Below are positions 5,076-15,467 of a DNA stretch of 59,613 bases, piece by piece. Position 1 is the first letter of the stretch. Every line of letters starts with the position of its first letter. The stretch covers positions 1 to 59,613 of the forward strand of contig JAFUWZ010000057.1 of the NCBI GenBank assembly GCA_017471045.1, given 5' to 3'. The notes below the pieces were generated by a model. The model saw only the letters and a list, made by a program, of their open reading frames with translations, was not told the DNA's origin and did no database searches. This DNA comes from Bacteroidales bacterium (GTDB taxonomy: Bacteria; Bacteroidota; Bacteroidia; Bacteroidales; UBA932). A program made the translations under genes and the position numbers.

Positions 5076-5864
5076 ATGATCAAGACGATCTTGTATATCC
5101 ACGGCATGGGAGGAGGGGCCGACAGCCGCATCCCTTCGGTCCTGAACGGATGGTTCGCGGCAAACCGGCCGGACGTGCGGGTCGTCGTCCGGACTTACCC
5201 GTTCCACCCGGGCCGGGCGGCCGGGCAGATCGATGCCTGGTACGGGGAGTTACGACCGGATCTGGTGATCGGAGAGTCACTGGGCGGCGTACACGCCCTT
5301 GCGCTGTTTGACAGACTTTCTACCGGCAGCAGGGACGCCGCTGTTCCCAAGGACTTTCCCCCGAAGGGGTCGAACTCTCTGCCCTTGGGAACAGCGGCGT
5401 CCCTGCTGCCGGCGAATGTCAACGCGAGGCAAACGCCACCGCCCCTGCTGCTGGTCTCCCCCGCCCTCAACGCGCCGCGGTTCCTGTATGCCGCCCGGCA
5501 TCTGGTCCGCATCCCTGCCATCCACCGATGGCTCAACCGCATCTATAAGGCCCGCGAAGGCGAACGCCAGGCGCTGGATTTCTCACCCGCTACCCTCGCG
5601 GCCTGGGGCTCCTTCCGCAACATCGCCAGGAAGGTCTCCTCTCTCTGGCACCGGCAAGAGCCGGGATGCCGACTCTCAGCTACGCCCCGTCCGCACGCCT
5701 TCTTCGGCCGCCGCGACCACTACCGCCGGAGCGGTATCGTCTCGCTCCGGGCGTGGCGCCGACTCTTCGGTCCCGGCACCTACACCTGCTACGACGGCTC
5801 GCACTATATGGAAGAGGAGCACCTGTTGGCGCTCCTCATTCCTTCCATTCTGGAAAGGCTCTAA
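5076..5864 (+). CDS. alpha/beta hydrolase interrupted by an in-frame fold-back element
   Basis: 262 residues. The N-terminal strand ILYIHGMGGGADS and nucleophile elbow GESLGG (Ser68) mark an alpha/beta hydrolase of the small YqiA/RBBP9-like sort. Strand LLLVSPAL and the probable acid (D214 in GRRDHY) and His243 (YDGSHYMEEEH) follow. Residues T83 to A113 are encoded entirely by the palindromic element at 5323-5412; its 90 bp are a multiple of three, so the frame stays open. The inserted peptide (GSRDAAVPKD...LGTAASLLPA) falls between the helix after the nucleophile and the next strand, where extra loops may be tolerated. The stop overlaps that of rhaA by 3 bp, tail to tail. Substrate unknown. 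Confidence 0.8.
   Translation: MIKTILYIHGMGGGADSRIPSVLNGWFAANRPDVRVVVRTYPFHPGRAAGQIDAWYGELRPDLVIGESLGGVHALALFDRLSTGSRDAAVPKDFPPKGSNSLPLGTAASLLPANVNARQTPPPLLLVSPALNAPRFLYAARHLVRIPAIHRWLNRIYKAREGERQALDFSPATLAAWGSFRNIARKVSSLWHRQEPGCRLSATPRPHAFFGRRDHYRRSGIVSLRAWRRLFGPGTYTCYDGSHYMEEEHLLALLIPSILERL
5323..5412. repeat. fold-back element, copy 1 (30-bp arms, in frame in a gene)
   Basis: A perfect inverted repeat: left arm 5323-5352 (starts CCGGCAGCAGGGACGCC), right arm 5383-5412, 30 bp each with no mismatch, around a 30-nt loop (5353-5382). The loop contains TTTCCCCCGAAGGGG and then TCGAACTCT, and can form its own small CCCC/GGGG hairpin; on the minus strand that is a cUUCGg-type tetraloop. A very similar loop occurs in the element at 14413-14489, whose arms are unrelated. 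No T-run follows, and it lies within a coding region, so it is not a normal terminator. Confidence 0.9.
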
Positions 5865-7111
5865 CGCTTCGAGAGCACTTCCCGCTCGTACTTTTCGATC
5901 TCGGGGATGAAAGCATCACCGACAGGCACGTTGTTCTTGAGGCAGAACATGTCCCAGACCGCGTTCCAAGGCATCACCTTGGTTTCCTCGAAGAGGGTCA
6001 ACTCCTGGAAGATCTGTCCTTTGAGCTCATATTCGCGCATCCGCTCAGTCGGTTCGATGAGGGCCCGCAGCATGCACTTCTGGGCAGCGCGCGTACCGAT
6101 GACGTAGGCACCGATGCGGTTGATGGCACCGTCGAAATAGTCGAGGCCGTAGTGGACGCGCTCCAAGGCGCCGGCCCGCACGATCTCGGCGAACAGCTCG
6201 AGCGTCGGATCGTCCATGATCGTCACGTGGTCGGAGTCCCAGCGGATCGGACGGCTGACGTGCAGCATCAGTTCCGGAACGAAGTTCAAGAGCGCGGACA
6301 CCTTGTCGGCCGGGCTCTCGGTCGGATGATAATGGCCCGTATCGATCGTGGGGATCTTGCCGTTAGCCGCCGCATAGGCCGTATAGAAGTCATGGGAGCC
6401 GACGGTAAAACTCTCCAGGCCGATGCCGAACAGCTTGCCCTCGATACAATCCTTCATGTTGTCATACTTCTGCGCGAAGATCTCGTCCAGGGAATCCTTC
6501 AGGATCGAACGGTAGAGGTAGTGGTTGACGGACTGCTCCTTGCAGCCGTCGTGGACCCACAGGTTCATAATGCAGGGATCGCCCTGGGCCTTGCCTATCT
6601 CCTCGGCGATGGCGCGGCAGCGCTGGGTGTGCTCGATCCAAAAATCGCGGATATCCTTGTCCGGGTTGGCCAGGGAGAGGTTGCCGCTCTTGGGATGCGA
6701 GAAGGAAGTGGAATTGAAGTCCAACTTGGTGCCGTGCTCCTTACCCCATTCGATCCAGCTCTGGAAATGTTTGGGCTCCACTTCGTTGCGATCGACGAAC
6801 TTGCCGCCGAAGTCGCCGTAGATCTCGTGGAGGTTGAGCCGGTGCATGCCGGGGATCAGGCTCTTCGCTTTGAGGATGTCGGCCTGTAGTTCGGCCATAT
6901 TGCGGGCTTTGCCCGGATAATTGCCGGTCGCCTGGATGCCGCCGGTCAGATCTCCTGCGCTCTCGAAACCGCCCACGTCATCCGCCTGCCAACAATGCAT
7001 GGAAACATGGAAATCCTGTAGTTGATCCAGCACCTTGTCCGTGTCGATGCCTTTTTCGGCGTACCGTTCTTTCGCGATTTCATACGCCTTCAGTACCAAT
7101 TCTTCTTTCAT
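5861..7111 (-). CDS. rhaA: L-rhamnose isomerase
   Basis: 416 residues from the ATG at 7111 (MKEELVLKAYEIAKERY), the usual length for RhaA, which converts L-rhamnose to L-rhamnulose in the cytoplasm using a divalent metal. The sequence follows the family throughout: SMHCWQADDVGGFE near the start, FNSTSFSHPKSG, NLWVHDGCKE, DTGHYHPTES and HVSRPIRWDSDHV contain the metal and substrate residues. An in-frame TTG at 7117 is less likely as a start. It is the last gene of a minus-strand run with glycerol-1-phosphate dehydrogenase 27 nt upstream. Rhamnulokinase and rhamnulose-phosphate aldolase are not in the window. Confidence 0.96.
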   Translation of the reverse strand: MKEELVLKAYEIAKERYAEKGIDTDKVLDQLQDFHVSMHCWQADDVGGFESAGDLTGGIQATGNYPGKARNMAELQADILKAKSLIPGMHRLNLHEIYGDFGGKFVDRNEVEPKHFQSWIEWGKEHGTKLDFNSTSFSHPKSGNLSLANPDKDIRDFWIEHTQRCRAIAEEIGKAQGDPCIMNLWVHDGCKEQSVNHYLYRSILKDSLDEIFAQKYDNMKDCIEGKLFGIGLESFTVGSHDFYTAYAAANGKIPTIDTGHYHPTESPADKVSALLNFVPELMLHVSRPIRWDSDHVTIMDDPTLELFAEIVRAGALERVHYGLDYFDGAINRIGAYVIGTRAAQKCMLRALIEPTERMREYELKGQIFQELTLFEETKVMPWNAVWDMFCLKNNVPVGDAFIPEIEKYEREVLSKR

Positions 7112-7138
7112 GATCAATTCGTTATTATATGTGATAAA

Positions 7139-8497
7139 TTAAAATGATTTCTCGTCCGTAAGGTCCCAGGCGCCGCCCGGGCCGAACACAGCCGCGACCA
7201 ACGCATCGTAGATCCCGGCGCGGAGGGAAAGGTCCAGCAGGTTGATCCGCCAGCGCATCAGCTGCGTCTTGGGGACCATGTCCTTGAGCTGGGCGCGCGT
7301 GACACCGATCTGCGAGGGATCGGACGGTGCCCCGACGGTCTCGAAGAGGTGCTTCATCTTACGGAAAGGATACACCTGCGCCCTGAGGCGGTCGCGCAGC
7401 TCCGGCCAGTGCGCCTTGACGGAGGACAGTTCCCGACGCACATCGTCCGGACCTTGATATTTCTGCGTGATGACGTTGTACCCCAGCTTCGGATCCACGA
7501 AGCCGTCGAAGAGTTTCAGCGCCCGTTCATGCTCCTGTTCGAGCGTCGGCCAGGCCGCCACGAGCGCCTCTACATCGATCCCGCCCAAATCCATCTCACA
7601 GAAAGCATCAAAAAAAGCGCACATCGTCAGCGTCCCGACCGCGACTTGGAAGCCGTGGGACTGGAGCTTGCCGCGGAAGCGGTGGTGCGTCATGTCGAGG
7701 TAATGGCTGAACAGATGGTCCGTGCAGGAAGCGGGACGGCTGGAGCGGGCGGCCTGCATGGCGAAACCACTGAGCGTCAGGCCTTCGAACAGCGCCGCGA
7801 TGGCGGAGGGTTCGCCGGCGGCGACGCCTTCCGGATCGGACAGCATCTCATCCAGGACATCCTGCAACACGTGCCACGCATCGGGGATGAGGGGCTCCGT
7901 ACCGAACAGGTCCGCGATCATCCATTCCGCCCCGGCGGGGATCTTGGCGGCCAGGTCAGCATAACCGGCTGCCGTCATCTCCTTCGGAGCCTGGGCGATC
8001 ACGCGGATGTCGGCGACGATCGCGACCGGTGCCGGACAGTCGAAGGTCTGCTTCACGCCCTCATAGGAGATGGAGGCCCCGAACGAGGAATAGCCGTCCA
8101 CGGAGGCCGCGGTCGGCACACAGATATATGACTGGCCCAGATGGGCCGACGAAAGTTTGCACAGGTCGTTGATCACGCCGGACCCGACGGCCACCGCCAC
8201 GGCGCCGGCGCCCTTCACAGCCGCCTCGACCATCTCGACATACTTCCACTCGGCGTGGAATTCCCGGTCCGGGATCAGGAAGACACCCGTCTCGATCCCG
8301 GCATCCAACAGATGCCGATAGACTTCGGCACCGGCGACGCGCCAGGTATTGACGTCCGCCACGACCATCGCCATCCGGCCGGGGAACAGCGCCGCAAAAA
8401 CGGCCGGCACCCGGGAGAGGCAACCCTCCCCCATCTCAAAAACTTTCGTATCGCGCGCTACAAGGAGCGCCTTGCGTATTCTTTCTTCAGTTTGCAT
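7139..8497 (-). CDS. sn-glycerol-1-phosphate dehydrogenase (AraM/EgsA family)
   Basis: 452 residues of the iron-containing alcohol dehydrogenase superfamily. It reduces dihydroxyacetone phosphate to sn-glycerol-1-phosphate with NAD(P)H. The dinucleotide-binding region AVAVGSGVINDLCKLSS, the substrate region PTAASVDGYSSFGASI, and the metal ligands around AGYADLAAK and SHYLDMTHHRFRGKLQSHGFQVAVG are visible. The length beyond about 400 comes from a C-terminal helical part, as in bacterial AraM. Its start overlaps the 3' end of the symporter gene by 11 nt. Next to RhaA it may draw on DHAP from rhamnulose-1-phosphate cleavage; that link is inference. Confidence 0.85.
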   Translation of the reverse strand: MQTEERIRKALLVARDTKVFEMGEGCLSRVPAVFAALFPGRMAMVVADVNTWRVAGAEVYRHLLDAGIETGVFLIPDREFHAEWKYVEMVEAAVKGAGAVAVAVGSGVINDLCKLSSAHLGQSYICVPTAASVDGYSSFGASISYEGVKQTFDCPAPVAIVADIRVIAQAPKEMTAAGYADLAAKIPAGAEWMIADLFGTEPLIPDAWHVLQDVLDEMLSDPEGVAAGEPSAIAALFEGLTLSGFAMQAARSSRPASCTDHLFSHYLDMTHHRFRGKLQSHGFQVAVGTLTMCAFFDAFCEMDLGGIDVEALVAAWPTLEQEHERALKLFDGFVDPKLGYNVITQKYQGPDDVRRELSSVKAHWPELRDRLRAQVYPFRKMKHLFETVGAPSDPSQIGVTRAQLKDMVPKTQLMRWRINLLDLSLRAGIYDALVAAVFGPGGAWDLTDEKSF

Positions 8498-9719
8498 GTT
8501 TCATATCCGTATTTACGTCCTCCGCGACACCTTCCGGTACCGCGGGGACCGTCGTTTTCATCCGGACCGCAATCCGGTCCATGATCAGGGCGACCGCACC
8601 GTCGCCGGTCACATTGCCGGCCGTCCCGAAACTGTCCATCGAGATATAGAGTGCAATCATCAGCCCCTGCATGTTGGCATCGAACCCCAGCATCGAGGAG
8701 AGCAGCCCGAGCGAAGCCATGATCGCCCCGCCGGGAACGCCGGGCGCCGCAACCATCGTAATCGCCAGCATCATCACGAAACCCAGATACAGTCCGGGGT
8801 CCGTCGCGAGTCCCATACCCAGCGAGATCGCATAGGCGCAGGCCGTGATCTTGAGGATGCTGCAAGGCATGTGGATGGTCGCACAGAGCGGAATGACAAA
8901 GTCTGCCACGGGCCCGCTGACACCGTTTTTCTTGGCGGACGCGAGCGTGACGGGGATCGTCGCCGCGGAAGACTGCGTACCCAGAGCGGTCACATAGGCC
9001 GACAACATCGTAGCCAGGGCGCGGAACGGGTTCTTGCGCGCAATGGCGCCGGCGATCAGGAACTGCAGCAGGAGCACGGTGATGTGCAGCACGATGATGA
9101 TGACGATGATCTTGGCGAAAGTACCCAACACCGGACCGACATTGCCCTCGGCGCCCAGCTGCAGGAAGATGCCGAAGATATACAGCGGCAGGATCGGAAT
9201 GATGAACTTCGAGATCACCACTTCGATCACCTCACGGAAATCGTGCATCGCCCGGTTGAAAGTCTTGCCGGGAATGACGGCCAGGCCCAGACCCAGCAAA
9301 AAGGCGAAGACGAGCGCCGTCGTCACGCTGATGAAAGCCGGCATCTCAATCGTGAAGAAAGGCAGCAGGCTGCCCGACATGTCCATCTCGCCCAAGGACT
9401 GGACCGAACGGCCCAGCAAGGACGGATAGGTGGCCCGGCAGGTGAGATAAGAGAAGAAGCCGGCCAGGATGGTCGAAAGATACGCGATCAGGATCGTGAT
9501 CAGCAACAGTCTCCCGGCTCCCCTGCCCAAGTCGGCGATCGCCGGGGCGATCAGGCCGATGATGAGCAGCGGGATGAACATCCCGAGGAAATTGCCGAAA
9601 ACCGAATTGAAAGTCAGGAAGACCCGCACGGCCCAAGTCGGAAAGAACAGGGAGCACAGGATACCCGCGACGATCGCTATCAGGATTTTCGGCAACAAGC
9701 CGAGATGAAACTTCTTCAT
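8487..9719 (-). CDS. dicarboxylate/amino acid:cation symporter (DAACS)
   Basis: 410 residues with about eight membrane segments and the two re-entrant hairpins of the GltP/SstT glutamate-transporter family. The serine-rich hairpin is LGTQSSAATIPVTL; the second is APGVPGGAIMASLGLL. The transport signature SMDSFGTAGNVTGDGAVALIMDR near the C-terminus holds the Asp and Asn that contact cation and substrate. The likely substrate is an acidic or small neutral amino acid or a dicarboxylate, moved with Na+ or H+. It sits 3 nt after the HerA-like ATPase gene and overlaps the dehydrogenase gene, so it is probably co-transcribed with rhaA. Confidence 0.88.
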   Translation of the reverse strand: MKKFHLGLLPKILIAIVAGILCSLFFPTWAVRVFLTFNSVFGNFLGMFIPLLIIGLIAPAIADLGRGAGRLLLITILIAYLSTILAGFFSYLTCRATYPSLLGRSVQSLGEMDMSGSLLPFFTIEMPAFISVTTALVFAFLLGLGLAVIPGKTFNRAMHDFREVIEVVISKFIIPILPLYIFGIFLQLGAEGNVGPVLGTFAKIIVIIIVLHITVLLLQFLIAGAIARKNPFRALATMLSAYVTALGTQSSAATIPVTLASAKKNGVSGPVADFVIPLCATIHMPCSILKITACAYAISLGMGLATDPGLYLGFVMMLAITMVAAPGVPGGAIMASLGLLSSMLGFDANMQGLMIALYISMDSFGTAGNVTGDGAVALIMDRIAVRMKTTVPAVPEGVAEDVNTDMKHAN

Positions 9720-9722
9720 GGC

Positions 9723-11360
9723 TTACTTGACAAGGTTGCCCAGGATGCTGCGCGTCAACTCTTTGGTCAACGTCGTCGTCGCGGATTTGGTAGCTTTTTC
9801 GACCGCCTTCTTGGTCGTGGAAGTCGTACTCTTTTTCTTGGTGCCCGTCACCTTGCCGGTCACAGAATCCGCCACGGAAGCAGCCACGACGCCGGTCACG
9901 GCCGTGATGACGGACTTCAGGACCTTGGAAGCGACGCTGTTCTTCGCCTTCTTCTGGGCTTCCTTTTCCGCCTTGGCAGCTTCCTTTTCGGCTCTTGCCT
10001 GCTCCCTGGCTTCAGCGGCCGCCTGTTTCTCGGCCTGCTTCTGCGCCTCGATCTCGGCCTTCTGGCGCTCGGCCTCCTCGGTCGCGGCGGTGAGGATCTC
10101 ATAGGCGCTCTCCCGGTCCACCGGATTGTCATACCGGCCCCAGAGCCGAGACTGCTTGATGATCAAGGCCCGCTGGTCCTCGGTGATGGCGCCGATCTGG
10201 CTGAGCGGGAAGAGGATCTTGGCGCGCTCGACCATGGACGGGGCGCCCTTCTCATCAAGGAAGGAGACCAGGGCCTCGCCGGTCTCCAGCTGGAGAATCG
10301 TCTCGTACGTATCGAACGCGGGGTTGGCACGGAAGGTTTCGGCCGCCGTCTTGACCGCCTTCTGGTCCTTGGGCGTATAGGCGCGGAGTGCATGCTGCAC
10401 GCGGTTGCCCAGCTGGCCGAGGATGTTCTCCGGGATATCAGTAGGGCTCTGAGTGATGAAATAGATACCCACGCCCTTGCTCCGGATCAGGCGGATCACC
10501 TGCTCGATCTTGGAGGTGAGGGCCTTGGACGTATCCTCGAAGAGCATGTGCGCCTCGTCAAAGAAGAAAACCAGCTTCGGCAAGTCCATGTCGCCGACCT
10601 CGGGCAGGGTGCTGTAGAGCTCCGACAGCAGCCAAAGCAGGAAAGTCGAATAGAGCTTCGGCTTGAGCATCAGCTTGTCGGCCGCCAGGACGTTCATCAC
10701 GCCCTTGCCGCCCTCGCACTGGAGCAGGTCATAGATATCGAATGACGGCTCCCCGAAGAACTTTTCCGCGCCCTGGTTCTCCAGGGTCAGCAGGGCACGC
10801 TGGATGGCGCCGATCGAGGCCGTGGAGACATTGCCATACTGGGTCGTGAACTCGGCGGCATTCTGGCCCACGAAGTTGAGCATCGCGCGCAGGTCCTTCA
10901 GGTCGATGAGCAGCAAGCCGTTGTCGTCGGCGATCTTGAAGACGATGTTCAGTACACCGGTCTGCGTCTCATTGAGTTCCAGCAGGCGGCCCAGCAGGTC
11001 GGGTCCCATATTGGAAATGGTGGAGCGCATCGGATGTCCCTGCTCGCCGTAAACGTCGAAGAAGCGCACCGGACAACTCTGGAACTGCGGATCCTCTAGG
11101 CCGAACTCCGGCAGGCGCTTCTGGATAAAACCGGAGAGCTTGCCCGGCTGGCTGATACCGCTCAGGTCGCCCTTCATGTCCGCCATGAAGCAGGGCACGC
11201 CCGCCTGACAGAAAGTCTCGGCCAGAACCTGCAAGGTGACAGTCTTTCCCGTTCCGGTCGCGCCGGCGACCAGTCCGTGCCGGTTAGCCATTTTACCGCA
11301 GATCGAGATGGGGCCGTTGGGGGCATGGGCGACATAGAGTCCGTGTTCTTTCGTAAGCAT
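9723..11360 (-). CDS. HerA-like P-loop ATPase, DUF853 (YjgR) family
   Basis: 545 residues. The Walker A motif GATGTGKT (33-40) lies in the typical N-terminus [23 protein letters not shown], and the Walker B region is [45 protein letters not shown] is the DUF853 sensor region. Residues about 425-475 are an Ala/Glu/Lys-rich coiled coil, followed by a Thr/Lys-rich tail. The cellular role of the family is not established; homology to HerA/FtsK suggests a hexameric DNA translocase. It is first in the run that ends in rhaA, with a gap of only 3 nt to the next gene, an unusual companion for sugar metabolism. Confidence 0.85.
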
Positions 11361-11427
11361 AGACAGATGGGGTTATCATAATCGTTTTCTATCTTGCTAA
11401 TATAATCATTATTCTCGAGATTTTTCT

Positions 11428-11435
11428 TATTTTTG
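11428..11435 (+). promoter_or_regulatory. -7 box before the 141-aa gene
   Basis: TATTTTTG fits TAnnTTTG; it is followed by AAGGAG (11441-11446), an unusually good Shine-Dalgarno for Bacteroidota, 8 nt before the ATG at 11455. Confidence 0.6.
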
Positions 11436-11454
11436 TAAAAAAGGAGACAGCAAA

Positions 11455-11880
11455 ATGCCCATCACCATCCAACTTCCCTTACTCCCAGGCTGGCGGTCCC
11501 AGCAAGAAACCCTGCCCGACCACGGGGCAGAGATCTTCCACCTGGAAGCTTACCTGCCCGACGACAGGAAGCAGTCCGACATCGCCCTGATCGACCTGTA
11601 CGCCGGCGACATGCCGGACGGTTCCGACGCCGGCCAGGAAGCCCTGAACTCCTATCGGGGCATCGTGGGGGATGATGACGAAGACCCGCTCACCATCTGG
11701 CCCTTCCAAGGCAAGGAAGCCTATGGATACGAGCTGATCTGCGACGACGACGCCATCATGCGCGTGATGTGCCTGGAGCCGATCCCGGGACAATCCCTGA
11801 TCATTAATATCGTGGCCCGTGACGAAGATCTCTTCGACACGGTTGTCACTTATGTCGAGACCCATCTTTCCATCCTCTGA
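11455..11880 (+). CDS. small acidic cytoplasmic protein, unknown function
   Basis: 141 residues without signal peptide or membrane segment, strongly acidic (DDRKQSD, GDDDEDP, CDDDAIM). The strand pattern (IFHLEAYL, IALIDLYAGDM, YGYELICDDDAIMRVMCLEP, LIINIVARDEDLF) suggests a compact alpha/beta domain. It has its own -7 box and a strong ribosome site, and the S9 peptidase gene begins 11 nt after its stop, so the two probably form an operon. I do not recognise a family. Confidence 0.75.
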   Translation: MPITIQLPLLPGWRSQQETLPDHGAEIFHLEAYLPDDRKQSDIALIDLYAGDMPDGSDAGQEALNSYRGIVGDDDEDPLTIWPFQGKEAYGYELICDDDAIMRVMCLEPIPGQSLIINIVARDEDLFDTVVTYVETHLSIL

Positions 11881-11890
11881 CCGAGCCGAT

Positions 11891-14398
11891 ATGCGTACTT
11901 TTCCCCTGCTCCTGCTCACGGCAGGACTGACGCTTGCGGCGTCACAAGCCCGAGCGGCCGGCGACACGCTGGCCGTCACTTCGTTCCGCCATTATGGTCC
12001 CATCTCCCTCGCTGCACCGGCCCGGATCGACAGCGTCAACATCCAAGGCAAGGGGTATGATCCCCTCGACCTGCTCTCGAATCCGGAAGGGACGGCGCTC
12101 GTCCGGCCGGGCGGCCCGTCCGGCCCCGGCACACGAATCCCCACGGAGGCGGGACTCCACCTGCTGGGATTTTCTGTCGAGACCCCGCGGTTCGCCCAGG
12201 CGGACCTCCTGGTGGAAGGCCTGCCGGACTACCGCCTGTTCGTGGACGGAGCGGAGAAGGCGGCGGCGGGAATCAAACTGGAGCCCGGCACCCATGCATT
12301 CGCCCTCAAATATCTCTGTCATCCTAAGCAAGGCGAAGGGTCCCCTTCCATCCGCATCGCCAGCGCCCGGCCCCTGACCCTCCGCGAGGACGGCCGGCGC
12401 CTATTTTCCCTGGACCTCAACACGCAGGGAGAATCATGCAGCGGCATCAGCGTCTCCCCCGGCGGGCAGTATTACAGCATCGGGCACAGTCTGACGGGAC
12501 AGGATGGGAGACCATCTTCGTGGCACGAACTGATCCGCCACGCCGATGGTCAGGTCATCGGACGCCGGGAAACTCCGTATCAATGGATGCCGGTCCTCCC
12601 CCAGGACGCAACGGCCGGCCGCAAAAGCGCCCGGAAAGCGGCTGCTCCAGCCGACCGCTTCTGGTACACACGTCCCGGCCTCAAAGGCAGAGACCTGATC
12701 GTGGAAGACCCCGCCGCCGGGACGCAGACGCTATGGGCCGCCGACATCCCAGAAGGTCATTTCGACATGGTCCCGGGCGAGCGCTTCCTCCTGTTCAGCC
12801 TGGAGCAGGAGGGCCCCAAGGAAGGGGAAGTCCATCAGATCCTGACCCCGGACGACCGGCAGCCCGGATGGAGAGACCGCAGCTACCTGGCCCTCTATGA
12901 CCGGACGACCGGACTGACGGAGCCCCTGACCTGGGGCTGGCACAATGTCTGGCTCCTTGACATCGCGGCCGACGGGAGCAAGATCCTGTTCCAGACCAGC
13001 CGGGAGCGCCTGTCTGCACGTCCCACCACCCTGTATTCCCTCTTCGTGATGGACCTCGCTTCCCGGCAGACGGAGTGCATCGTGGAGGACGACGGTTTCC
13101 TCAACGGAGCATCTTTTTCTCCCGATGCGGAGGAGATCCTGGTCACGGGAAGCCCGGAAGCCCTGGACGGCATCGGAAAGCAAGTTCTGCCCGGTCAGAC
13201 GCCCAATTCGTTTGACCTGCAACTTTTTGCCATCCGCCTGGCGGACCGCAGGGCCCGGGCCCTGACACGCGACTTCGCCCCCTCGATCCTGGATGCACGC
13301 TGGAGCCGCTATGACGGGCTGATCTATGCGACCGCTGAAGACAAGGATTGCAAGAACCTGTTTCGGATCGACCCGGCCGACGGGACGGCGCTGCGCCTGC
13401 CCAACCAGGAAGAATACCTGTACCGCTTCGACCTCGCCGATACGGCCCCCGTACTGGCGTATTATGGCCAGAGCCTGTGCAACGGGGACCGGGCGTACGT
13501 GATGGATACCCGGAGCCTGCGGCAGGACTGTGTCCGCGACCTTGACGCGATCCGTTTCGGAGATGTGGATTTCGGCGAAGGAGGAGCCTTCGAATTCACG
13601 AGCAGCCGCGGCGACCGGATCAACGGATTCTATGTCCTGCCCCCGGATTTCGATCCGGCGAAAAAATATCCGATGCTGGTCCACTATTACGGAGGCTGCT
13701 CACCGAGTGCGCGCTACTGCTACGGATCCTATTCGCCGCAGGTCTATGCGGCCCAGGGGTATGTGTTCTACGTCGTCAATCCCAGCGGTGCAGCCGGCTT
13801 CGGGCAGGAGTTCGCCGCCCGGCACGTCAATACGGCCGGTGAAGGGGTGGCGGAGGACATCCTGGAAGCCGTGGAGCAGTTCTGTCAGGCCCACCCGTTC
13901 GTGGACCGCAGACACATCGGATGTTTCAGCGCCTCGTACGGCGGATTCATGACCCAGCTGCTGCTGCAAAAGAGCGATATCTTCGCCGCCGGCGTCTCAC
14001 ATGCCGGCATCAGCGACCATACCAGCTACTGGGGCGAAGGATACTGGGGCTACTCGTACAGCGAGACGTCGATGGCTGACAGCTACCCCTGGACGCGGAA
14101 AGACCTGTACGTGGACCGCAGTCCGCTCTACAACGCCGACCAGATCCACACGCCCCTGCTGTTCCTGCATGGCAGCGCAGACACCAATGTGCCAATCGGC
14201 GAGAGCATCCAGATGTTTACGGCGCTGAAGCTGCTGGGGTGCGAAACAGCGTTCGTGGTCGTGGACGGCGAGAATCACGGCATCCGCGAATACGGCAAGC
14301 GACGGCAGTGGCTGCGGACGATTTTCGCCTGGTTCGCCAAGTACCTGCAGGACGATCCGGCCTGGTGGGACGAGCTCTATCCGGAAAAGCACCTCTAA
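11891..14398 (+). CDS. S9 family (prolyl oligopeptidase/DPP-like) serine peptidase
   Basis: 835 residues from the ATG at 11891, chosen because MRTFPLLLLTAGLTLAASQA is a clear signal peptide; an upstream in-frame ATG overlaps the previous gene. The middle is a WD-like beta-propeller (DMVPGERFLLFSLEQ, NGASFSPDAEEILVTG, DARWSRYDGLIYAT). The C-terminal 260 residues are an alpha/beta-hydrolase domain with the triad Ser682 (SASYGG), Asp764 (HGSADTNVP) and His796 (GENHGI). The nucleophile motif has Ala where most family members have Trp (GxSYGG type), a small departure. It probably removes dipeptides or cleaves after proline in the periplasm. Confidence 0.9.
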   Translation: MRTFPLLLLTAGLTLAASQARAAGDTLAVTSFRHYGPISLAAPARIDSVNIQGKGYDPLDLLSNPEGTALVRPGGPSGPGTRIPTEAGLHLLGFSVETPRFAQADLLVEGLPDYRLFVDGAEKAAAGIKLEPGTHAFALKYLCHPKQGEGSPSIRIASARPLTLREDGRRLFSLDLNTQGESCSGISVSPGGQYYSIGHSLTGQDGRPSSWHELIRHADGQVIGRRETPYQWMPVLPQDATAGRKSARKAAAPADRFWYTRPGLKGRDLIVEDPAAGTQTLWAADIPEGHFDMVPGERFLLFSLEQEGPKEGEVHQILTPDDRQPGWRDRSYLALYDRTTGLTEPLTWGWHNVWLLDIAADGSKILFQTSRERLSARPTTLYSLFVMDLASRQTECIVEDDGFLNGASFSPDAEEILVTGSPEALDGIGKQVLPGQTPNSFDLQLFAIRLADRRARALTRDFAPSILDARWSRYDGLIYATAEDKDCKNLFRIDPADGTALRLPNQEEYLYRFDLADTAPVLAYYGQSLCNGDRAYVMDTRSLRQDCVRDLDAIRFGDVDFGEGGAFEFTSSRGDRINGFYVLPPDFDPAKKYPMLVHYYGGCSPSARYCYGSYSPQVYAAQGYVFYVVNPSGAAGFGQEFAARHVNTAGEGVAEDILEAVEQFCQAHPFVDRRHIGCFSASYGGFMTQLLLQKSDIFAAGVSHAGISDHTSYWGEGYWGYSYSETSMADSYPWTRKDLYVDRSPLYNADQIHTPLLFLHGSADTNVPIGESIQMFTALKLLGCETAFVVVDGENHGIREYGKRRQWLRTIFAWFAKYLQDDPAWWDELYPEKHL

Positions 14399-14412
14399 GA
14401 GCCAGGTTTCGG

Positions 14413-14489
14413 CCACCCGGCCCGTGCGCTCCAGGAAGCATTCCCGAAGGGGGAAACTCTTTGCTTCCTGGAGCGCACGGGCCGGGTGG
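14413..14489. repeat. fold-back element, copy 2 (28-bp arms, intergenic)
   Basis: A perfect inverted repeat: left arm 14413-14440 (starts CCACCCGGCCCGTGCGC), right arm 14462-14489, 28 bp, no mismatch. The 21-nt loop (14441-14461) reads TTCCCGAAGGGGG then AAACTCTT, matching the loop of the element at 5323-5412 while the arms do not match. Within the loop TTCCC/GGGAA can pair. It lies between the stop codons of the convergent S9 peptidase and YitT genes and could act as a bidirectional terminator by position, but neither strand has a T-run after it. Confidence 0.9.
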
Positions 14490-14495
14490 TTTATG

Positions 14496-15467
14496 CTAGC
14501 CCTGTACCTTGTTGTGAGGACCGTGGTGCTGGAACCAAAGGCCGTAAACCTCACTGACATTGCCGGCCGTGATGAATGCCTTGATATCATGCTCGTGGAG
14601 GAAGGCCATCAGCGCCGAAAACTCATCCTGCGTCAGCAGGACCTGCACCTCCGTCATCTTTTCCCCGCTGAAACCGCCCGTAACCTCATAGAGGGAGCAG
14701 CCCCGGACCAGATCGTCGATGATGAAGCGCCGGATCTTTTCCGACTCCTTGGACACGATGCAGACGCGCTTGCGCTTGTTGAGGGCAGCCGTGAAATAAT
14801 CCACGACCAAGCCGTTGATCCATGTACCGATCAGGCCGATCACCACCATGCGGAAAGGATTGATGGCGAATGCCGTACAACAGATGATGGCGCCCGCGAC
14901 GCTGACGGACGCGCCGATGTCGAAATGAAGGTACTTGTTGACGATCTTGGCCAGGATATCCAGTCCGCCGGTCGAGGCATTGATCCGGAACAAAATCGCC
15001 TGGGATGCACTCAGCAGCAGGACGAAACAGAGCAGGTCGAACCATACGTCCCCCATCACGCTGGTCTGGCCTGCATCGGTGAGGAAACGCGAATAAGGAT
15101 AGATCTTCTCACACACATCCATCAGCGGGCCCAGGATCAACGCCGTATAGACCGTCTTGATCCCGAACTCCTTGCCCACCAGGAAATAGGCCAGCACAAG
15201 AAGGATGGCATTGATGCCCAAAACGACCGTGGACACCTTGACCGCCAGGCCGAACTTGGCCAGAATCCCGCTGACCACAATGGACAAGCCGGAAATACTG
15301 CCGATGATCAGTTTGCTCGGAACCAGGAAATAGTACACGGCCACCGCAGCGACCAACATGCCCAAGGTCATGATGACCCACTCTTTCCAAAACTTCCAGG
15401 TACGAAGAGCCTGCAAGGAGGTCCCGACGACATCATGGATACGTTCCTTGCTGATAGGATTTTTCAT
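14496..15467 (-). CDS. YitT family membrane protein
   Basis: 323 residues. Six hydrophobic segments in the first 220 residues (VIMTLGMLVAAVAVYYFLV, LIIGSISGLSIVVSGIL, STVVLGINAILLVLAYFLV, VWFDLLCFVLLLSASQAIL and others) make up the YitT_membrane region, including the characteristic INASTGGLDILAKIVNKY. The last 90 residues are the cytoplasmic DUF2179 domain (KRVCIVSKESEKIRRFIIDDL, GEKMTEVQVLL). The family is widespread, with no settled function; transport is suspected. It is followed on this strand only by the fold-back element, and the glycosyltransferase gene ends 20 nt upstream, so the two are likely co-transcribed. Confidence 0.9.
   Translation of the reverse strand: MKNPISKERIHDVVGTSLQALRTWKFWKEWVIMTLGMLVAAVAVYYFLVPSKLIIGSISGLSIVVSGILAKFGLAVKVSTVVLGINAILLVLAYFLVGKEFGIKTVYTALILGPLMDVCEKIYPYSRFLTDAGQTSVMGDVWFDLLCFVLLLSASQAILFRINASTGGLDILAKIVNKYLHFDIGASVSVAGAIICCTAFAINPFRMVVIGLIGTWINGLVVDYFTAALNKRKRVCIVSKESEKIRRFIIDDLVRGCSLYEVTGGFSGEKMTEVQVLLTQDEFSALMAFLHEHDIKAFITAGNVSEVYGLWFQHHGPHNKVQG

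Follow-up and report, generated by a model that had tools for sequence, protein, structure and literature searches.

The stretch of DNA analysed here (the window, 59,613 bases of a Bacteroidales bacterium genome) holds two long perfect palindromes, one lying in frame within a gene and the other between two convergent genes. A scan of the window for inverted repeats (arms of at least 12 bp, loop below 120) returned three perfect ones, at 5323-5412 (arm 30, loop 30), at 14413-14489 (arm 28, loop 21) and a third with 12-bp arms that is kin to neither long palindrome. The positions and the perfection of the two long palindromes are as the initial annotation had given them, with arms of 30 and 28 bp. 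The features, with the evidence for each in brackets, are as follows.

5076 to 5864, plus strand: host gene of copy 1, with the hairpin in frame and residues ~78-122 extra (comparison with relatives, Pfam)
5323 to 5352, plus strand: left arm of copy 1 (inverted-repeat scan; covariance-model match at 5328-5407, plus strand, 61 bits)
5353 to 5382, plus strand: loop of copy 1, divergent core ACTTTCCCCCGAAGGGGTCGAACTCTCTGC (sequence, inverted-repeat scan, alignment)
5383 to 5412, plus strand: right arm of copy 1, exact reverse complement of the left arm (inverted-repeat scan)
11819 to 14398, plus strand: left neighbour of copy 2, S9 prolyl-oligopeptidase-family protein (stop 14 bp before the hairpin)
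14413 to 14440, plus strand: left arm of copy 2, terminating in ..GGAAGCA (covariance-model match at 14412-14490, plus strand, 76 bits)
14441 to 14461, plus strand: loop of copy 2, TTCCCGAAGGGGGAAACTCTT, with inner mini-hairpin TTCCC-GAAGG-GGGAA (sequence, scan, folding)
14462 to 14489, plus strand: right arm of copy 2 (inverted-repeat scan)
14496 to 15467, minus strand: right neighbour of copy 2, YitT-family membrane protein (convergent; hairpin 6 bp from its stop codon)

Both loops have CCCGAAGGGG, AACTCT and TGC in common, and to this extent the shared loop form described in the initial annotation stands, although copy 1 is a divergent member of its family, in which the loop usually starts GC-ATTCCCC. 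Aligned with the rest of the family, copy 2 has its left arm ending at GC, position 14439. Whichever strand is folded, each palindrome does better than every one of its 200 shuffled versions (z -11 to -15). Two more genuine gaps between convergent genes, of 83 and 54 bp, were found in the window, and their stems reach only 5 bp. The product of the gene that hosts copy 1 appears hydrolase-like by reading, with a Pfam UPF0227 match below the cut-off.

Comparison with relatives was informative for the first site. A match to its gene was found in 33 relatives among the 101 genomes searched, and 32 of these align both halves of the protein (residues up to ~77 and from ~123 on) with 0-51 nt between them as against 135 here, the gap being 15 nt or less in 30 of the 32; the 33rd aligned downstream only. 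The absence of both arms of copy 1 from these relatives supports an insertion at this site and counts against an arm copied from the flank. A congener outside these 33 matches, G071, has the gene with a hairpin at the same place, its core on the opposite strand, and carries a second hairpin at a position that is bare in the window genome. For copy 2, six YitT orthologues were compared, four of them without a hairpin within 400 bp and two (L308, L309) with an unrelated one, and a model search gave no family match at any of the six loci. These loci were rejected as an empty site for copy 2, as the other neighbour gene differs there by reading.

Extent, anatomy and placement of the hairpin family

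A strict loop pattern, GAAGGGN{1,6}AACTCTNTGC, matches only twice in the 2.6 Mb window genome (hereafter G000; G071 and G223 are congeners), both times in the window and with no match in the reversed control, so that the finding looked like a two-copy case. Across 150 genomes it added four matches in three congeners, none palindromic-looking. The strict pattern understates the family. A relaxed pattern, CCCGAAGGN{0,12}ACTC, gave 13 matches, two of which are additional clear hairpins whose loop is the same and whose arms are unrelated, and more copies turned up in flanks retrieved around other loci. The core GCATTN{0,2}CCCGAAGGG matches 20 times in the window genome and 21 times in G071, with no match in the reversed control of either, and by reading 18 of the 20 and 20 of the 21 are hairpins, a count that includes three cut by contig ends (one duplicating another copy) and one weak stem. 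The core occurred without a hairpin in three of these 41 matches (L103, coding; L104, degraded, 31.5 bits; and L123). The expectation that the core always comes with a palindrome was borne out to this degree in G000 and G071, but not in some other Bacteroidales, where stems are of 6-9 bp only. In the other 148 genomes the core matched 27 times against 12 in the control (0-2 per genome), and none of the 26 of these 27 matches inspected had a stem (stem scores 2-5).

Flanks of the core matches were aligned on the inner GC and 22 copies with clean stems were chosen. A covariance model at E up to 0.01 gave 47 matches in G000, 39 in G071 and 41 in G223, including opposite-strand matches of the same palindrome. 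In all, 152 model matches (150 aligned) reduce to 107 distinct copies: 43 in G000 (the window's two included), 28 in G071 and 36 in G223, the last genome being ~55% complete. This count comes from a search of 100 of the 108 element sources, and a few copies may be strain duplicates at contig ends. The prediction of many copies per genome is thereby upheld, and the window's two are far from the sole copies. A broader model found a match in 45 of 400 genomes of the genus, with 13-14 in each of the three main genomes (14 candidates scored each), 12 in G058, 10 in G283 and one to six in the rest.

A scan of named genomes returned 19 stretches with 22 core matches, 12 of which have arms of at least 15 bp, all in Bacteroidales metagenome-assembled genomes (MAGs). 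Five Bacteroidales cores have 6-9 bp stems only (L220, L227, L231, L233, L235), records from Pseudomonas, Salibacterium, Lachnospiraceae and Bacillota have 6-bp stems, and one match in a Veillonellaceae MAG has a 13-bp stem. The strict core gave no match in IMG/VR, and a looser core gave six stretches without a perfect repeat of at least 13 bp in the parts examined. A literature search of open-access PMC papers found none describing this hairpin family.

The family unit is ~80-90 bp long, with a loop near GC-ATTCCCC-GAA-GGGG-T..TTCT-GC; the consensus runs GC-ATTCCCC(C)-GAA-GGG(G)-T..., often with TTCT or a similar string before the final GC. Among 94 copies selected for at least 22 of 28 pairs, pairing by position is 0.81-0.98 at positions 1-28 and then 0.61, 0.44 and 0.19 at 29-31, a drop that places the arm end at 28-30 bp. 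Both partners vary at 26 of 28 arm pairs in the 22 aligned copies, and the covariation score is 0.925 compared with 0.191 for shuffled and at most 0.189 for slid alignments; because these copies were picked for clean stems, their 97.9% pairing is biased upward. The arm consensus is weak and clearest next to the loop (GG.AGC), and in 95 copies the arms fold on themselves no better than their shuffled versions (mean z -0.09 and -0.16). Alignment and covariation of the copies thus confirm the proposal that the loop is conserved and the stem variable, the reverse of ordinary REPs. On the non-core strand the loop reads as a CCCC-UUCG-GGGG hairpin; the UUCG tetraloop is very stable. Copies from elsewhere in the genus again have the inner stem GGAARGC/GCTTYC and a loop near ATTTCCC...TTTCT, and their inner CCC-GAA-GGG hairpin can be altered (CCCGACAGGG, CCCGCAAGGG) or absent.

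With genes called by a home-made codon model, on which all counts of placement, frame and orientation depend, 71 of the 107 copies are intergenic with both neighbours called: 46 of them have convergent, 21 tandem and 4 divergent neighbours. Of the others, 30 fall within called ORFs and 6 at the edge of a contig. The hairpin lies 2-20 bp past the nearer or upstream stop codon in 40 of the 46 convergent and 11 of the 21 tandem copies. The core is antisense to the gene in 56 and sense in 30 of 86 copies (p 0.007; nearer gene for convergent pairs). Copies inside genes are read through in frame in 25 of the 95 well-paired copies. Five hosts have Pfam matches, namely dnaX, a polysaccharide-synthesis protein, a phosphoglucomutase-family protein, a 3-dehydroquinase with EPSP-synthase domain and a radical-SAM/TRAM protein; the Pfam match spans the copy in two of them, the polysaccharide-synthesis protein and the 3-dehydroquinase/EPSP-synthase. 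In the phosphoglucomutase-family gene (L284:767-2080) the copy lies in frame just ahead of the domain I match. Some copies come in pairs 7-33 bp apart (L289, L292, L293, L296, L297, L203 in G223 and L266 in G000), and except at L289 the two members are opposite in orientation, as in BIMEs.

Strand bias, arm evolution and mobility

Mismatches in the stem favour G.T over A.C on the core strand. Read on the core strand, the 95 copies left after 12 of the 107 were dropped for poor pairing have 110 G.T, 32 A.C and 67 other mismatches (p 3e-11). The excess recurs in each of the three genomes (G.T:A.C 41:19, 32:6 and 37:7), and by copy 54 have more G.T, 11 more A.C and 30 are ties. The count rests partly on copies found by a model scored for RNA, a bias limited by the subset of 33 copies from G000 and G071 defined by the core pattern only, in which G.T again exceeds A.C (36 versus 15, p 0.005). 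The excess has the same direction whether the core runs sense (33:12) or antisense (70:16) to the gene, whereas an effect of transcription direction would reverse. Most simply, this would mean that selection or processing has acted on the core strand when it folds by itself, suggesting that the single core strand must fold. G.T wobble is tolerated by RNA and single-stranded DNA alike; the lack of a fixed orientation to genes would favour single-stranded DNA.

When all three species were compared, orthologous sites were often occupied, with flanks 66-92% identical. Arm identity in 35 cross-species orthologous pairs ranges from 0.34 to 0.98 with a mean of 0.57, compared with 0.43 +/- 0.09 cross-species at large; links within one genome and inconsistent ones were left out, and a locus that has two copies side by side is counted more than once. 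At some orthologous sites the arms thus appear to be of common ancestry, while many pairs lie near background, where repeated insertion at the same spot and drift are not separable. The core has opposite orientations at five unambiguous orthologous loci. Arms are clearly common in two of these, G000 C13:24154 versus G223 C24:1422 (identity 0.98, one flank matched) and G000 C47 versus G223 C6 (0.75) and G071 C6 (0.64). The other three have arms near background identity and may represent independent insertions. Where arm identity is 0.60 or higher (14 pairs), a hand count over partly non-independent pairs and with no baseline to compare gave 39 double changes of transition type and 40 of transversion type; changes on one side only numbered 42 (25 G.T, 9 A.C, 8 other).

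Concerted stem changes and inverted loops are described as marks of template switching in one study (PMC8794818), as are arm homogenisation and spacer inversion in another (PMC8604942). Loop inversion with the arms kept is found at the two loci with common arms (0.98; 0.64-0.75), which supports the initial suggestion that stems are kept perfect by gene conversion or template switching. Together with the transversion-type double changes, the loop flips point to arms being re-matched by copying. Template switching alone does not predict the G.T excess and selection alone does not predict the loop flips.

Near-identical arms at different sites were seen within one genome (L145/L162 in G283; C19:4140/C38:11449 in G000) and across species (L149 in G309; L328/L332 in G023/G163), which indicates that whole hairpins have been copied, with the arms travelling with the loop. 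Direct repeats of at least 3 nt at the ends occur in only 2-5 of 95 copies and target duplications were not found, and since direct repeats are nearly absent we infer transposition from the common arms. Conserved terminal inverted repeats of the MITE type were not found in the family copies. No mobilising enzyme could be linked to the family. No recurring gene was seen near 13 low-copy loci when the nearest ORFs were compared, beyond one orthologous pair of loci.

Among the Y1-transposase matches listed (37 in 15 genomes, including G000, G071 and G223), 20 loci were inspected. The sole match of G000, that of G071 and two of the five in G223 have other hairpins or nothing, with no family hairpin. 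The only family-model match at the 20 loci, L183 in G309, is weak (19 bits) and directly beside the Y1 gene, so that a link to REPs may exist; its hairpin (L183:795-867) reads GCGGGAAGC-ATTTTTTATAGGAAACC-GCTTCCCG. Other Y1 (RAYT-like) genes of the genus (L186, L188, L182, L193, L184) each have their own kind of double hairpin on the flanks, which has a short linker and differs between genes. Within 8 nt of the arm, the REP foot was sought in 95 copies and GTRG was found once (5'), CYAC twice (3'), CGTC four times and GACG not at all. There is no T tract past the 3' arm (T 0.25-0.32 at 29-32 and 0.13-0.21 at 33-36) or on the opposite strand (T 0.39, 0.44 and 0.29 at 29-31, then 0.11-0.19 at 32-38), and 10 loci gave no Rfam match above the gathering score.

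Interpretation and relation to known elements

We think it probable, with appreciable room for doubt, that these are lineage-specific, non-autonomous, interspersed hairpin repeats of one Bacteroidales genus, in which a folded core strand is read through its loop, the hairpin is copied whole and the arms are re-matched by template switching together with selection. The conserved loop would be the recognition site of a putative protein acting on the folded core strand, presumably as single-stranded DNA rather than RNA. Whole hairpins would occasionally be copied to new sites, and template switching from arm to arm during replication would re-match the arms and at times invert the loop. Selection for folding of the core strand could do the remainder, so that the arm sequence would drift while pairing stays. 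A bolder version, which we offer tentatively, sees the copies as hairpin replicators whose sole sequence identity may be the ~25-nt loop on one folded strand, with the arms serving as a 30-bp pairing handle rewritten arm to arm, and a putative single-strand enzyme recognising and copying the unit via the loop.

The hairpins could instead be cis-acting RNA elements at 3' ends (a terminator, an mRNA-end stabiliser or a protein-binding element) whose loop and pairing are under selection and whose arm sequence is free to vary. This reading would account for the short distance of 2-20 bp from a stop codon in 40 of the 46 convergent and 11 of the 21 tandem copies, and for the strong RNA folding, the covariation and CCCC-UUCG-GGGG on the non-core strand. 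Against it, orientation to genes is not fixed (antisense 56, sense 30), the loop orientation varies between species and the G.T excess tracks the core strand whichever way the gene runs. A terminator is further disfavoured by the missing T tract past the arm, though A reaches 0.39-0.44 at 29-30 on the 5' side, and the 25 of 95 copies in genes, the 5-bp stems of the window's two other convergent gaps and the lack of an Rfam match in 10 loci add to the case against, so that we regard an RNA role of this kind as rather unlikely. About the same doubt, or a little more, attaches to REPs or REPINs of a Y1 (RAYT/TnpA-REP) transposase with a conserved linker and diverged REP parts. Y1 matches are present in G000, G071 and G223, the repeats by several Y1 genes likewise have GC pairs that enclose a short, AT-rich linker, L183 gives a weak hit to the family model, and extragenic placement, close opposite pairs (in G223 here) and in-frame insertions are features of REPs (PMC6006769, PMC3733652). 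Yet the foot is nearly absent (GTRG 1/95, CYAC 2/95), the arms do not self-fold beyond chance, and the inspected Y1 loci of G000, G071 and G223 (2 of 5 in the last) carry other hairpins or none of the family.

That a mobile core copies its flank as an inverted arm at each insertion, as the initial annotation had also proposed, would account for arms that are mostly different from copy to copy, stop at a constant distance from the loop and in many cases match perfectly, and for the 6-9 bp stems at some other Bacteroidales cores. It is very improbable given that near-identical arms recur at different sites within a genome and across species, that the relatives at the first site have neither arm and that the arms have a weak consensus. 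Assembly or library artefacts such as fold-back chimeras deserve mention since the genomes include metagenome assemblies and several copies sit at contig ends; we give this hardly any credence in view of orthologous sites in three assemblies, the covariation, the conserved loop and open reading frames running through copies.

On the preferred reading, of repeats recognised by their loop and copied whole, the family is most likely new, non-autonomous and REP-like but inside-out. It is similar to REP, BIME and REPIN repeats with RAYT (TnpA-REP) in that each genome has tens of hairpins, most of them extragenic and many located after stop codons, single or in close opposite pairs and sometimes in frame within genes. 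As a multi-copy extragenic palindrome it would pass for a REP. It lacks the two self-folding inverted REP hairpins of a REPIN or BIME, since its arms (95 copies) do not self-fold, and its arms of 28-30 bp compare with REP stems of 5-13 and 8-9 bp in a survey (PMC3733652, Table 1) and basal stems of 7-20 nt allowed in PMC6006769. The family conserves the loop and not the stem, has no GTAG/CGTC foot, and no Y1 gene was found beside its copies in G000 or G071.

Rickettsia palindromic elements also insert in frame in protein-coding genes, with enzyme activity kept (PMC6649704). Their host lineage is unrelated, and here most copies are intergenic (71/107) and the loop is the conserved part; the likeness drawn is one of habit. 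Quasipalindromes (PMC8794818, PMC8604942) and coding palindromes of Nematomorpha mitochondria (PMC6649704) are alike in concerted arm changes, homogenisation and inversion of the spacer or loop; they are mutation patterns in host or RNA-gene sequence, whereas here there is a dispersed family with one conserved loop. MITEs are likewise short, non-coding, multi-copy and bounded by inverted repeats, but the family has no conserved terminal repeats and no target-site duplications were seen.

It is debated whether long perfect stems persist via selection with wobble intermediates or via template switching, and paired sites in three related genomes offer a natural experiment on this question. In this family the flips and transversion-type double changes point to copying and the G.T excess to selection on one strand. 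Gut Bacteroidales also gain with it an interspersed palindrome family with in-frame insertions in housekeeping genes.

Some observations concern the assemblies and the local arrangement of copies. Several copies lie at or near contig ends (L114/L115, L136, L140, L257, L273, L278), and the same copy is present on G000 C49 and C63, which suggests strain variants or assembly breaks at repeats. Extra loop cores lie close to a full hairpin at L148, L231 and L335, some with degraded arms. On G071 C9, three copies within ~4.4 kb (L128, L285, L286) have flanks (CCGGYGAC...CCAA) and outer arm bases in common, hinting that a larger unit was duplicated.
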